DNA of 32,435 bases, from assembly GCA_013824865.1 (NCBI GenBank), contig PNON01000025.1:1-32435 (forward strand). The letters are read 5' to 3'. Every line of letters starts with the position of its first letter. Position 1 is the stretch's first letter. Below, piece by piece: positions 91-24,748 of the stretch. The translations under genes were made by a program, and so were the position numbers. The DNA is from Anaerolinea sp. (lineage in GTDB: Bacteria; Chloroflexota; Anaerolineae; Anaerolineales; Anaerolineaceae). The notes beneath the pieces were generated by a model. The model ran no database searches. It was not told the DNA's origin and worked only from the letters and a program-made list of their open reading frames with translations.

Positions 91-810
91 TCATTCCACG
101 GGTTTGGCAACAATGATCACCCGGTGGGAATTGCCACGTTTTGGCCAGCAGGTTACCAGGGTAATGCGCTCATCATCCTTGTGCCCTATCCACTCCGCAT
201 TTGCCCTCCGAATATCAAGTGAGACATCCACCTCTTTCAACAGCTGTTTATCAACCACCTCATAGATGAATACCTTTTGACCCGAATACAAATAAACCAA
301 ATCGCCAATTTCCAACTCTACCAGATGACCAAATACTTTGCCGTAAGCATTGTGATGACCGCCAATTACCGTATTGCCCATTTCGCCTAATGGCGCAGAA
401 TTGGCCTGCCAGCCGGCAGCGCTTTGATCCGGGACAATCCACTGTTCAAACCACTGATCGCGGATCTCCAGCGTGGATTGAGTTGAAGGGATAACTGGCG
501 CATCCACCTTAATGGCTGGAATTACAATCCGGTCTGGAATATACCCGATGATTGGTTCCAAGGTTGGTGTTGGTTCAGCAATAACTACAGGTGTGGTTGT
601 GACTTGCCGATCTGGGATCGATGCGGTTGAATTAACAGGAGCTTCAGCGAAGGTTGAGGAAATATTCGGTCCCTGAACTGTTTTCGTCAGAGCCCGCTCA
701 AACTGGTAATTATTTATCGCATCCGGGATATCCACAAAGATATTGAGAACTGCGGCGACAAGCAGAATCGTGCCTGCGGAGATAAGGATGATACTTCTTC
801 TTGGCTTCAT
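91..810 (-). CDS. Sortase family transpeptidase (class D/E-like)
   Basis: Membrane-anchored cysteine transpeptidase of 239 residues, expected to cleave a C-terminal sorting motif of secreted proteins and transfer them to an acceptor outside the membrane. The N-terminus has a basic start and one membrane segment (about residues 6-26), then a Pro/Thr-rich spacer to about residue 90, then the sortase beta-barrel. The catalytic triad is visible: His152 in IGGHHNAYG, Cys221 in ITLVTCWP, and Arg230 in SHRVII. The gene lies just downstream of a secreted protein with IPVTG-type motifs, its likely substrate, on the same strand but separated by a terminator-like hairpin. Exact sortase class is uncertain; family assignment is firm. 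Confidence 0.93.
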   Translation of the reverse strand: MKPRRSIILISAGTILLVAAVLNIFVDIPDAINNYQFERALTKTVQGPNISSTFAEAPVNSTASIPDRQVTTTPVVIAEPTPTLEPIIGYIPDRIVIPAIKVDAPVIPSTQSTLEIRDQWFEQWIVPDQSAAGWQANSAPLGEMGNTVIGGHHNAYGKVFGHLVELEIGDLVYLYSGQKVFIYEVVDKQLLKEVDVSLDIRRANAEWIGHKDDERITLVTCWPKRGNSHRVIIVAKPVE

Positions 811-837
811 TGTATATTCTTGATAAATAAAAATAAA

Positions 838-872
838 TTACCAGAAGGGCGATACACTCACCCTTCTGGTAA
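838..872 (-). terminator. Intrinsic terminator between substrate and sortase genes
   Basis: Perfect 12-bp inverted repeat (838-849 with 861-872) with an 11-nt loop. On the minus strand it is followed by a T-rich run, as expected for Rho-independent termination after the gene ending at 897. The sortase would then be read from partial read-through or its own promoter. Confidence 0.75.
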
Positions 873-896
873 CAATCTTACTACCAATCAATCTTC

Positions 897-2138
897 TCAG
901 TTATCCTTCAGCTTGAAAGATACACCCTGGGACAGGAAGGCAATCCCCAGGAAGATATAACCAAACTTTAGGAAAAGTGTTCCAAGGGGAGTTCCAGAGA
1001 ACGGATTGGAGAAATCCGCGCCAGTTACCGGAATCAGAAGTTCCTGATCCGGGTCCGCTGTGGTCAGGGTGGATACAAAGGTGGGTTGGGCAGCAGCCTG
1101 TTTCACGGGTTGTACGCCACCAGTCACCGGGATCAGCAGGGGTTCTTCACCACCACCGCCAGTTTCGGGAACTTTGGTTGGCGGAGGATTGACAACCGGG
1201 GTGGCAGTATCGGGCGCCGGGCACGGGCTGGTTTCGCTGGTGGTGCTGCTTAAATTATGCTGCTGGTCATTATTATCCAACCAGGAAATCGTCATGGTAT
1301 GATAACCGCCGACAGTAGAGAATGTCAGGCTGCTATTGGCTGGAACGGTGCCAGAACCTGAACCGCCGCTGCTAAGCGACCAGCCAAATTGCACAGGAGA
1401 ACCATTTGTGTTTGAAACGGTCCATTGTTGTTGTGGCGCGGCGCAAATATAACCCAACGAAAGCCTGGCAAAAGGAACTACAGTGGCAGTTGGCTCTTCA
1501 GTTGGCGTGGCAGTTGGTTCTTCAGTTGGTGTGGCAGTTGGTTCCTCAGTGGGTGTGGCGGTTGGTTCAGGCGCACTGCATGCCGGATCATCTTGTCCAG
1601 ATATCTCAAAATCGCCAACGTGATCAAAATGACCGTTCCAGCCATCTGCATCCACATTTAGTGAAAGCGGATTTTCAAGATTGCCGGGTGGGATATGGCA
1701 GATCCAGATTTTGTGGTCTACAACCGCAGTAGAAGTGACTGTAGCTGTAGAAGTTTCTGTAGGATCAACCCCTGTAACCGGGATGAGTATTAGCGCTTCA
1801 ATTGTACTTTCTGGTGTACTGGTAGGCGGGACATCAGTTGCTGTCGGTTCAGGCGCACTACAGCTTGGATCATCTCTACCGGAGATCTCAAAATCGCCAG
1901 CATGAGCATCATGCCCATTCCATCCATCCGCATCCACGTTAATTGCCAATGGATTATCCGGGTTACCGGGTGGGATATGGCAGATCCAAATTTTATTCGC
2001 TTGCGATGAAGCGCCATTTGAAGCATAAACAGGCTGGCTTACGAATGATAAGATTATTCCAACGATCAAACTCACAACACCGGCGGTATAAGCCATGAAA
2101 GCGAGTTTCCGAAAGAATTGATGTTTTTTTATTTTCAT
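897..2138 (-). CDS. Secreted sortase-substrate-like protein with repeated IPVTG motifs
   Basis: Secreted protein of 413 residues. A signal peptide or membrane segment spans about residues 10-40 (ending near VYAS). Two near-identical ~45-residue modules follow (49-93 and 143-187), each with KIWICHIPPGN, a DADGWNGH stretch, GDFEISG and a closing Cys, suggesting a small disulfide or metal-stabilised domain. A PTEEPTAT linker occupies about 190-220 and a further beta-rich domain about 223-310. LIPVTG occurs three times (118-123, 335-340, 368-373), plus VPETG at 323-327. The last copy precedes a hydrophobic segment (about 383-403) and a short tail ending KLKDN, matching a cell-wall sorting signal. 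A GGGAG-like ribosome site precedes the ATG. Adjacent to a sortase; biological role unknown. Confidence 0.85.
   Translation of the reverse strand: MKIKKHQFFRKLAFMAYTAGVVSLIVGIILSFVSQPVYASNGASSQANKIWICHIPPGNPDNPLAINVDADGWNGHDAHAGDFEISGRDDPSCSAPEPTATDVPPTSTPESTIEALILIPVTGVDPTETSTATVTSTAVVDHKIWICHIPPGNLENPLSLNVDADGWNGHFDHVGDFEISGQDDPACSAPEPTATPTEEPTATPTEEPTATPTEEPTATVVPFARLSLGYICAAPQQQWTVSNTNGSPVQFGWSLSSGGSGSGTVPANSSLTFSTVGGYHTMTISWLDNNDQQHNLSSTTSETSPCPAPDTATPVVNPPPTKVPETGGGGEEPLLIPVTGGVQPVKQAAAQPTFVSTLTTADPDQELLIPVTGADFSNPFSGTPLGTLFLKFGYIFLGIAFLSQGVSFKLKDN
1483..1570. repeat. 24-bp tandem repeat coding for PTEEPTAT linker
   Basis: Three full and one partial copies of a 24-bp unit (1483, 1507, 1531, 1555). 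They encode 8-residue PTEEPTAT units in the sortase-substrate-like protein. Copies differ by a few silent or near-silent changes. Confidence 0.9.
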
Positions 2139-21790: not shown

Positions 21791-23443
21791 CTATGAGCAG
21801 GCTGCCAACGCATCCCGGACAGTCTCCATAACTTTTCCCAGGGCAATGAGCTGTAAATCTCCCGACAGGCGCAGTTTCAGCTCCACCCCGCCATGGCTTA
21901 GCGAGCGCTCGCCAATGGTCAGGCGGAGGGGACATCCGATTAGATCCGCGTCATTGAATTTAACACCCGGGCTTTCCATGCGATCATCACACAACACTTC
22001 CAGCCCGGCAGCCTGCAGGTCAGTATAAAGCTGTTCAGCAACCGGCAGTACGCCTGAGCCTTTCCCTGGCAGTACGACCATCTGCACCTGAAAAGGCGAA
22101 AGGGATGCCGGCAGGCACAGACCGTGCACGTCATGATGCTCTTCTGCCATACAGCCCAGGATTCTGCCATAATCAAGCGAACAAGTGCTGAAGAGGATTG
22201 GCTGCTGATTGCCATTCTCATCCTGCACCATGCAATCCGTTGTTTTTCCAAGTTCCCGGTCATAGGAGATTACTCTGCTTAATGCTACCGCGTTGATCAG
22301 TTCTATCGGTTCGCCGCAAGTTGGACAGGCATATCCAGGTTGGATGCTGGCAATGTCATCCACCATATCCGCCTGGTAATCGCGCGGAAAATTGGTATTG
22401 ATCAGGTGAAAACCATCTTCATTGGCACCGGCTGCCAGGTTGGTGCACAACGGGATCATTTCATCCACAACGACTTTTAAACTGCTACTCCCAAGCAATC
22501 CGATAGGGGAGGCATATCCAAGCGCCGCTCCAACTGAAAGGATCTCTTGCGTGGTAGCCGGGCGCAACGAAGATGCGCCCAGCATTCTGGTCAACTTTGA
22601 CTCGCTCACATCCATATCACCGCGCACTACCGCGAAGATAAAAATGGGCAGCTCAACGGATGGATACCCAGCCATATAGAATACGGCTTTGGCTGTTTTA
22701 TCGGCTGGAATTCCTAAAAAGTCTGCCAACTGCTGGATGGTTTCCGCGTGCGGTGTGGCTACTTTTACGATCCCCTCTGGCGGCTCATTCTCTGGTTGCT
22801 GACGCTGGAAACTGGCTACCCGACTGTCTGCGGCGTATCCGCAATGGTGGCAGGTGGCAACTGTATCCGACCCCAGGTCTGTCGCGCAATAATAACGCAG
22901 GTCTGATTCTGCGGTTCCACTCCCGGATTCAGCTTGCATGGTTCGCCATGGCAGGCCGCATTGGGACAGGACCCGCTCAAGTATCTGTGTAACCGTCTGA
23001 TGGCTTGCTTGATGTCCTGTTGGAGAAATATCGAGAGTATGGATGGCTGTACACCAGGATTGCCGGCCATTAAGTAATCCGCTGCGGGTGTGAACACCAT
23101 CGTGGCTTTTCTTTTGCGTGTGATAAACGATCTGTGGGAGCTGCCGGTGAGAGCGTATTTTTGCCCGTGAAAGTTCAATTATTTCATTCATGCCATCCGG
23201 AAGGTAATCGCCATTAACCGGAGCATTTTGAAGCCATAACTCTTGCCCACCAATAGCTTCCAACTCCCTCTTGAGTATCCTGTCCAGCTTTTGTAACGTC
23301 CTGGCACCCAGGGGCATCAGGCTGATACCTCCGGATGCGTGCGGGTGGAAATACCCGGCTCGTTGCAGCAATTGGTTGCCTTCCCCCACAGCCTCCACTG
23401 GAGATGATCTGAGTGTTTGTAGGAATAGCCGCGACATCTTCAT
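21791..23443 (-). CDS. Prolyl-tRNA-synthetase-like protein, probably aminoacylation-deficient
   Basis: Intact 550-codon frame homologous to bacterial-type ProRS from end to end: N-terminal MKMSRLFLQTL and RAGYFHPHASGGISLMPLGARTL, an inserted YbaK-like editing domain (about 220-390; VVRGDMDVSESKL, conserved Lys252), and the anticodon-binding domain (ALSPFQVQMVVLPGKG, GLEVLCDDRMESPGVKFNDADLIG). Key catalytic parts are missing. The GPTHEE loop and surrounding residues are deleted after QELWLQ, motif 2 FRDE is KSHDG, and the GHIFQLG proline-pocket segment reads PIELINAVAL. Motif 3 keeps an Arg (YGRILG). A CHHCGYAAD knuckle is near 198. It is therefore unlikely to charge tRNA normally; trans-editing, amino-acid sensing or another RNA-linked role is possible. 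Calling it proS would be misleading. Confidence 0.85.
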   Translation of the reverse strand: MKMSRLFLQTLRSSPVEAVGEGNQLLQRAGYFHPHASGGISLMPLGARTLQKLDRILKRELEAIGGQELWLQNAPVNGDYLPDGMNEIIELSRAKIRSHRQLPQIVYHTQKKSHDGVHTRSGLLNGRQSWCTAIHTLDISPTGHQASHQTVTQILERVLSQCGLPWRTMQAESGSGTAESDLRYYCATDLGSDTVATCHHCGYAADSRVASFQRQQPENEPPEGIVKVATPHAETIQQLADFLGIPADKTAKAVFYMAGYPSVELPIFIFAVVRGDMDVSESKLTRMLGASSLRPATTQEILSVGAALGYASPIGLLGSSSLKVVVDEMIPLCTNLAAGANEDGFHLINTNFPRDYQADMVDDIASIQPGYACPTCGEPIELINAVALSRVISYDRELGKTTDCMVQDENGNQQPILFSTCSLDYGRILGCMAEEHHDVHGLCLPASLSPFQVQMVVLPGKGSGVLPVAEQLYTDLQAAGLEVLCDDRMESPGVKFNDADLIGCPLRLTIGERSLSHGGVELKLRLSGDLQLIALGKVMETVRDALAACS

Positions 23444-23483: not shown

Positions 23484-24272
23484 TTATAAGAAAGCTACCC
23501 ACAGGTGGGCGGCATGGTAGAGAATAGGCGCGAGCAAGCTGCCATTCTTTTTCATCAACCAACCCATCAACAGCCCCATCATCACCCGATAGATCACCGC
23601 GCCAGCGAGGGCTATTCCGGTAAACGGTAAAATAGCGAAAGCGACGACTGTCCACCAGATAATATAGAGAAGTGCGGCTGCAAGCCAGCCCCATTTTTCT
23701 CCAAGCCAGGCTGAGAACCTGGGTTGCACATACCCGCGAAAGACGACTTCCTCCCCTATCACCGCAATGATAGCCACAGCCAACGCCAGGAAGGCATCGG
23801 AATGTAAACCATTGATAATCGCGAAGATCTTACCGTGAAGAAAAATGGTCAGGAGCGCCAGCGCGGCTCCCATCTGGAGGCCTGCTCTGTAGGTATTCCG
23901 ATTCAACCCGATGCTGAGCAAAGGCTGTTTACGGATGATCAGGGCGGCGGCAACTGGCAGGAGGAGAATGCCAGAAAAAATCGATTGCGACACAATTGCA
24001 TTCATATCAGCCAGTCGGAACGTTGGCGCTCCAAACAGCCCCGGGTAGGACGGAAAGTTGGCAAGGTCTGTGAATATTGCACCTGAAAGCCTGAGTAAGA
24101 TGGCTGTAATCAGCACGACAAGGACGCCCACTGAGAGCGCGGCGGATCCCTCCCTTTTTGGATACTTGAATGTCAGCAAACGCCGGTTGCGGATAACCGG
24201 GCTGATTGAAAGGATCATAATGACTGCAATAACACCGATGATTTCGCTGATCAGGAGGATGGGAACGCTCAT
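23484..24272 (-). CDS. CPBP-family membrane protein, possibly inactive protease
   Basis: Polytopic protein of 262 residues with about seven hydrophobic segments. Motif 1 is intact, GEEVVFRGY with Glu174/Glu175 and Arg179. Motif 2, normally FxxxH, reads LLYIIWWTVV with no His. The last motif is present as YHAAHLW (His253, His256). The missing His may weaken or alter metal binding. Its start overlaps the bactofilin stop (4 bp), so the two are co-transcribed. Confidence 0.8.
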   Translation of the reverse strand: MSVPILLISEIIGVIAVIMILSISPVIRNRRLLTFKYPKREGSAALSVGVLVVLITAILLRLSGAIFTDLANFPSYPGLFGAPTFRLADMNAIVSQSIFSGILLLPVAAALIIRKQPLLSIGLNRNTYRAGLQMGAALALLTIFLHGKIFAIINGLHSDAFLALAVAIIAVIGEEVVFRGYVQPRFSAWLGEKWGWLAAALLYIIWWTVVAFAILPFTGIALAGAVIYRVMMGLLMGWLMKKNGSLLAPILYHAAHLWVAFL

Positions 24273-24748
24273 TGGGTTTTATCCTGACCATCTTTATCCG
24301 CAGGCGCACCATCAATCTCAGGAGCAGGAGAATCAACATTTAGGAGTGGGGTAGGCGCAAGTCCATAACGGGTCAGATCAATGGTATCTTCCATCTGGAT
24401 CTGTCCACGCAAGAAGGAACCCTCCTCAGTGGCCAGCGCCACCACCTTGACATCCCCCCATACCCGACCGGTGGAGCGAATCTCAAGCTTTTCAGCGGTA
24501 ATGTTTCCGCGCACAGCCCCCGCCACAATGATTGTATTGGCGACTACATTTTCACAGGTTACCCGGCCTGTTTCGCCCACAACCAGCAGCCCGCGCAAGG
24601 CAACTTTACCTTCAAAGGTCCCTTCTATGCGGATGCCGCCGGAACCGGATAAGTCTCCGACCCAATTGATGCCCGGGCCAATGACAGAGGTGACCCGTTC
24701 CACCGGGGTAGTTGATACAGATGTAGTGGAACCTGGACGCTTAAACAT
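24269..24748 (-). CDS. Bactofilin (polymer-forming cytoskeletal protein)
   Basis: Protein of 159 residues with a central bactofilin right-handed beta-helix, seen as repeated short strands (SGSGGIRIEGTFEGKV, LRGLLVVGETGRVTCENV, IIVAGAVRGNITAEKLEIRS, GRVWGDVKVVALATEEGSF). It is flanked by disordered N- and C-termini, the latter Pro/Asp-rich. Bactofilins assemble nucleotide-independent filaments involved in shape or envelope processes. AGGAG precedes the ATG. First gene of a unit with the CPBP-like protein. Confidence 0.9.
   Translation of the reverse strand: MFKRPGSTTSVSTTPVERVTSVIGPGINWVGDLSGSGGIRIEGTFEGKVALRGLLVVGETGRVTCENVVANTIIVAGAVRGNITAEKLEIRSTGRVWGDVKVVALATEEGSFLRGQIQMEDTIDLTRYGLAPTPLLNVDSPAPEIDGAPADKDGQDKTQ

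Follow-up and report, generated by a model that had tools for sequence, protein, structure and literature searches.

An eroded bacterial-type prolyl-tRNA synthetase of Anaerolinea as a probable stand-alone tRNA-editing factor

The window considered here, a 32,435-nucleotide stretch of contig PNON01000025.1 from an Anaerolinea sp. genome (assembly GCA_013824865.1), carries on its minus strand a relative of the prolyl-tRNA synthetase (ProRS) gene proS. The coordinates given in the initial annotation (21791-23443) are correct and the frame is indeed open throughout, with 550 codons running without interruption from an ATG at 23443 to a stop at 21791. A plausible candidate Shine-Dalgarno sequence (GAAGG) lies 8 nt 5' of the ATG, and the gene begins 41 bp past a gene for a CPBP-type membrane protease. 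The parts of its product, P0001, and the two conserved neighbours of the gene are as follows.

21791..23443, minus strand: eroded bacterial-type (P-type) ProRS, P0001, 550 aa; proposed stand-alone editing factor
22883..23443, minus strand: N-terminal half of what was the class II core (residues 1-187); 18 of 47 conserved positions kept
22310..22882, minus strand: INS editing domain with flanking four-Cys pair (residues 188-378); PF04073 at residues 230-351; 35 of 37 kept
22124..22309, minus strand: C-terminal segment of the old core (residues 379-440), its motif 3 degenerate (SLDYGR); 4 of 17 kept
21794..22123, minus strand: anticodon-binding domain, ABD (residues 441-550); PF03129 at residues 454-543; 20 of 20 kept
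23484..24272, minus strand: CPBP/Rce1-like membrane protease gene directly upstream of proS; PF02517; conserved neighbour
24269..24748, minus strand: bactofilin gene, conserved proS neighbour; PF04519

Conserved positions are those at least 95% conserved across 129 canonical relatives. P0001 retains 22 of 64 such positions in the catalytic core and 55 of 57 in the INS and ABD taken together (35/37 and 20/20; Fisher p = 1.1e-13 for the contrast), a pattern that is far from chance and far from uniform decay. The N-terminal half of the core, which is 30% identical to that of the canonical copy L007 and lacks about 26 residues between residues 75 and 85, has lost both the TxE loop and motif 2. The loop, AMTHEE in canonical enzymes, aligns to LPDGMN, THEE being replaced by DGMN where 128 of 129 canonical copies have the Thr; motif 2, canonically IQTKWRDD, aligns to TQKKSHDG, and its Arg, found in all 129 canonical copies, has become H114. 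The canonical VELGHIFKLGTRYS aligns to VALSRVISYDRELG, and the GHIF/GNIF strand is lost or changed in a motif table set against relatives. Motif 3 (canonical GSYGIGLGR) aligns to STCSLDYGR; the final GR alone is kept, and the motif 3 Arg is present as R427. These alignments bear out the losses in the ATP/proline site claimed in the initial annotation, motif 2 ending in SHDG among them, as well as the good preservation of the ABD and of the INS with its Lys, and they confirm that, judged from sequence, the aminoacylation site of P0001 has been destroyed.

A Pfam search of P0001 matched PF04073 and PF03129 and gave no match to the class II core, PF00587. The protein falls below the cut-offs of both ProRS families, with 353 bits against 558 for NCBIfam NF006625 and 269.1 against 306.7 for TIGR00409, and its closest relatives are bacterial-type ProRSs (PDB 2j3l, E 2e-73). 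An AlphaFold2 model of high confidence (pLDDT 94.1, pTM 0.90) finds its best PDB match in the same Enterococcus faecalis enzyme, 2j3l (Z 44.3 over 541 residues, rmsd 2.5, TM 0.90), which suggests that the eroded core can still position the INS and the ABD. Fold and synteny together mark P0001 as a descendant of bacterial-type ProRS, and the PF04073 match, catalytic Lys and GXXXP loop place it in the INS superfamily as a predicted deacylase. The key INS residues are K252, the G309-xxx-P313 loop, D327, GAN at 339-341 and H346. Four cysteines around the INS (C198, C201, C373, C376), invariant in the eroded and canonical copies of the clade, form a probable zinc-ribbon-like site linking the points of INS insertion.

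Homologs were gathered from the window's family and order. Clearly eroded copies are present in 26 genomes, the window's included, from 15 genera and six families (ten genera in the window's own family and five in five others); L151, from Anaerolineae bacterium Ch132, and L162, from MS_R1_8, are among them. One copy, L045, is cut off at a contig end; 25 eroded copies were aligned. Many of these relatives have intact frames with the same pattern of loss, instead of the frameshifts that would have spoken for decay. PF04073 and PF03129 are matched in 25 of 25 eroded copies and PF00587 in 5 of 25, whereas all three are matched in 25 of 25 canonical copies. K252, D327 and H346 are found in all 25 eroded and all 129 canonical copies, and G309 and P313 of the GXXXP loop, the GAN motif and the four Cys are invariant in the aligned eroded set. 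Intermediates also exist: the motif 2 Arg is missing from L132 and the THEE loop from L068, and L020 shows slight changes. The extreme form is L047, from a single-contig genome, a protein of about 400 aa whose core is nearly all gone and whose INS and ABD are kept; the best match of its model (pLDDT 92) is still a bacterial ProRS.

The window gene, for which no close relative was found, lies outside the within-genus pairs of relatives on which dN/dS was computed. Within eroded pairs the ratio is 0.08-0.28 in every part of the protein. In the N-terminal core it is 0.16-0.28, against 0.02-0.04 in canonical pairs; in the INS and ABD, eroded and canonical pairs have similar ranges. Canonical pairs are more alike in the core than in the INS (0.93 versus 0.77 identity, for example), and in nearly every eroded pair the INS is the more alike. 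These data show that the eroded relatives are under purifying selection, with constraint shifted from the synthetase core to the INS and ABD. The gene thus has neither the broken frame nor, as far as dN/dS from relatives alone can speak for it, the lost constraint of a pseudogene, and the earlier view that it is not decaying holds in the relatives that could be tested.

The initial annotation described the gene as a paralogue, a label that did not survive comparison of loci. Eroded and canonical proS copies alike are directly preceded by bactofilin and CPBP genes, which argues that erosion took place in the native proS itself and that the gene is an ortholog at the ancestral locus. Among the family genomes none has two P-type matches; given this and the single common locus, the model of a duplicated paralogue was set aside. 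The tree of eroded ProRS-like proteins envisaged earlier, built here on INS and ABD, calls for at least five changes, yet a single eroded clade is not rejected (AU test, p 0.21), nor is the joining of the large eroded clade with the copies of genus g8 (p 0.33). The nearest relative of P0001 in this tree is the canonical L007 (SH-aLRT 90), and genus g8 is mixed, with eroded copies in G008, G168 and G169 and canonical ones in G164 and G166. With synteny shared, no genome having both forms and one genus containing each, repeated in-place erosion is the simpler reading, and a likely one.

A second ProRS to charge tRNA(Pro) is present, of archaeal and not of bacterial type. The source genome, which is 85.7% complete, contains four genes with PF00587, and one of them, L003 on contig C23, encodes a full archaeal-type ProRS (TIGR00408, 566 bits; cut-off 437) with PF00587, PF03129 and PF09180 and no PF04073. 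The predicted canonical charging ProRS of this genome is this distinct archaeal-type enzyme. The sole other PF04073 protein found there is the YbaK-like L051, which scores 124 bits with TIGR00011, short of the cut-off of 153. The tRNA-Pro(CGG) gene (L105:1501-1576) specifies bacterial-type C1:G72 and A73, despite the archaeal-type charging enzyme, whose usual archaeal substrate is a tRNA with C72 (PMC11295145).

Archaeal-type ProRS matches occur in 24 of the 26 genomes with eroded copies (in two pieces in G007); the two without are G061, which is 61% complete, and G053, which is in 540 contigs. In G053 (96% complete) the most diverged eroded copy, L044, was found and no other ProRS, probably owing to an assembly gap. 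Among the genomes examined that have a full P-type gene and no archaeal-type match, the P-type motifs are canonical (G027, 97% complete, and the less complete bins G086, G087 and G145), G061 being the exception. G027 constitutes a natural control: its contig C10 (L022, L209) encodes a fully canonical bacterial-type ProRS, and the genome has no archaeal-type enzyme. Within the family co-occurrence is a weak test, since the archaeal-type enzyme is nearly universal there. In three cases, L126, L148 and L197 (contigs CAIQQN010000130.1, MGMF01000023.1 and JAGOMA010000002.1), archaeal-type and canonical bacterial-type proS genes are adjacent on the same strand, suggesting that the two enzymes may have cooperated even before erosion.

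The reading that we favour, with a probability of about 0.7, is that P0001 is a former bacterial ProRS turned into a dedicated trans-editing factor, which might be called ProRS-ed. One can picture the archaeal-type ProRS occasionally attaching Ala to tRNA(Pro) and releasing the product. The ABD of P0001 would recapture Ala-tRNA(Pro) by reading anticodon bases G35 and G36, the CCA end would be placed in the INS, and Ala would be hydrolysed with the help of K252 and the GXXXP loop. What is left of the core would serve only as a scaffold for INS and ABD, perhaps also as a dimer platform, and Cys-tRNA(Pro) would be left to the YbaK-like L051. The chemistry has precedent: every deacylase of the INS superfamily that has been studied relies on this Lys and on the GXXXP loop (PMC11286415), and E. 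coli ProRS K279A is defective in editing (PMC3973320). By itself the INS does not distinguish between tRNAs; the ABD directs it by recognizing G35/G36, while changes in the acceptor stem are irrelevant to ProRS editing (PMC3973320). ProRS is also named among synthetases able to recapture misacylated tRNAs in trans (PMC4787780). With the INS steered by the ABD, an irrelevant acceptor stem and recapture in trans, INS and ABD are what such a factor would have to keep, and motif 2 and the ATP site would be dispensable. That these proteins amount to a new bacterial class of trans-editing factors with their own ABD, arising several times in Anaerolineae by conversion of the native proS after takeover by the archaeal-type enzyme, we regard as somewhat better than an even bet.

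It is also worth considering that the bacterial proS, redundant beside the archaeal-type ProRS, is simply heading for loss and that its frame is intact by chance. The partly eroded copies (L020, L068, L132) would fit such late decay, as would the congener G001, where both flanks of the locus are conserved but a RIO-domain kinase gene takes the place of the missing proS (contig C43, L215:2572-3534, minus strand). Neutral decay spares no domains, however, and a split of 22/64 versus 55/57 (p about 1e-13), 25 other eroded copies with mostly full-length frames, low dN/dS (0.08-0.28) in within-genus eroded pairs and an invariant catalytic Lys/His/Asp set make this account unlikely. The loss in G001 and the absence of an INS-type protein from nearly all g16 genomes do mean that the family can dispense with the activity. 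PF04073 is absent from 27 family genomes, and the 20 listed are all of genus g16, which uses the archaeal-type ProRS and apparently does without INS-type proline editing. Many genomes with an eroded copy carry 2-5 further PF04073 proteins, so that clearance of Ala-tRNA(Pro) could be redundant. Complementarity, in which genomes without a P-type gene would gain stand-alone PF04073 proteins, was not seen.

The initial annotation left the choice between an editing factor and a tRNA-binding regulator. Its non-charging derivative is supported by the sequence comparisons, and of its two options editing is to be preferred. A non-catalytic tRNA(Pro)-binding regulator or scaffold, of the type that HisZ represents within the HisRS paralogs, or else a subunit acting together with the archaeal-type ProRS, would account for the fully kept ABD and for the adjacency of the two genes in three genomes; but a pure binder has no need of K252, the GXXXP loop, D327 and H346, all of them invariant, and we hold this to be quite unlikely. 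An editing factor acting mainly on another amino acid or another tRNA is very unlikely in our view: amino acid specificity does vary among INS superfamily members (PMC11295145), yet P0001 has changed least in its INS and ABD, which match canonical bacterial ProRS at 55 of 57 conserved positions. That P0001 might be an unconventional but active prolyl-tRNA synthetase, as the retained fold and R427 could be taken to mean, is hardly credible with the motif 2 Arg changed to His, the TxE loop gone, both family cut-offs missed and a full ProRS elsewhere in the genome.

The direct ancestor of the proposed editing factor is the bacterial-type ProRS with an INS (TIGR00409/NF006625; 2j3l), with which it shares locus, fold, INS and ABD; unlike that enzyme it has neither TxE loop nor motif 2 and little of motif 3, and would not be expected to charge tRNA. 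Its closest counterpart in function would be archaeal ThrRS-ed, a freestanding Ser-tRNA(Thr) deacylase with an ABD whose partner synthetase has no editing domain (PMC7373986, PMC11295145). Both would be synthetase-derived stand-alone proofreaders with an ABD, P0001 being non-charging by prediction, and L003, its putative partner, likewise has no PF04073 editing domain, but ThrRS-ed has a DTD-like editing domain and serves threonine in archaea, whereas P0001 has an INS and would serve proline in bacteria. The hydrolytic domain of ProXp-ala and YbaK is homologous to the INS of P0001 and also contains the Lys and the GXXXP loop; INS-superfamily trans-editing proteins are, however, single-domain (PMC11295145), whereas P0001, at 550 aa, has its own PF03129 ABD and what is left of a synthetase core. 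Streptomyces too has an additional ProRS-like protein, ProRSx, which charges Pro onto tRNA(ProA) and is the sole ProRS entry in a 2022 review of duplicated synthetases (PMC9437257); it retains the activity that P0001 has presumably lost. In the largely open-access literature covered, we found no prior account of an eroded editing ProRS and no paper on ProRS and its editing domain in Chloroflexi, so priority is uncertain.

Should the favoured reading hold, a displaced housekeeping synthetase would have become a pure proofreading protein, and an INS-family trans-editor would have its own anticodon reader, contrary to the single-domain rule (PMC11295145). A single order contains living examples of every stage, from canonical through partly and fully eroded to core-deleted. 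How anticodon recognition is relayed over about 70 Å to the editing site is an open question (PMC3973320), for which the eroded ProRSs may offer natural separation-of-function variants. They also pose an annotation hazard, as genes of this kind are readily given the label "proline--tRNA ligase". Elsewhere in the window (91-2138, minus strand), inspection by eye shows a sortase-like protein next to one of surface type, in which LIPVTG segments recur and are possibly an unusual sorting signal.
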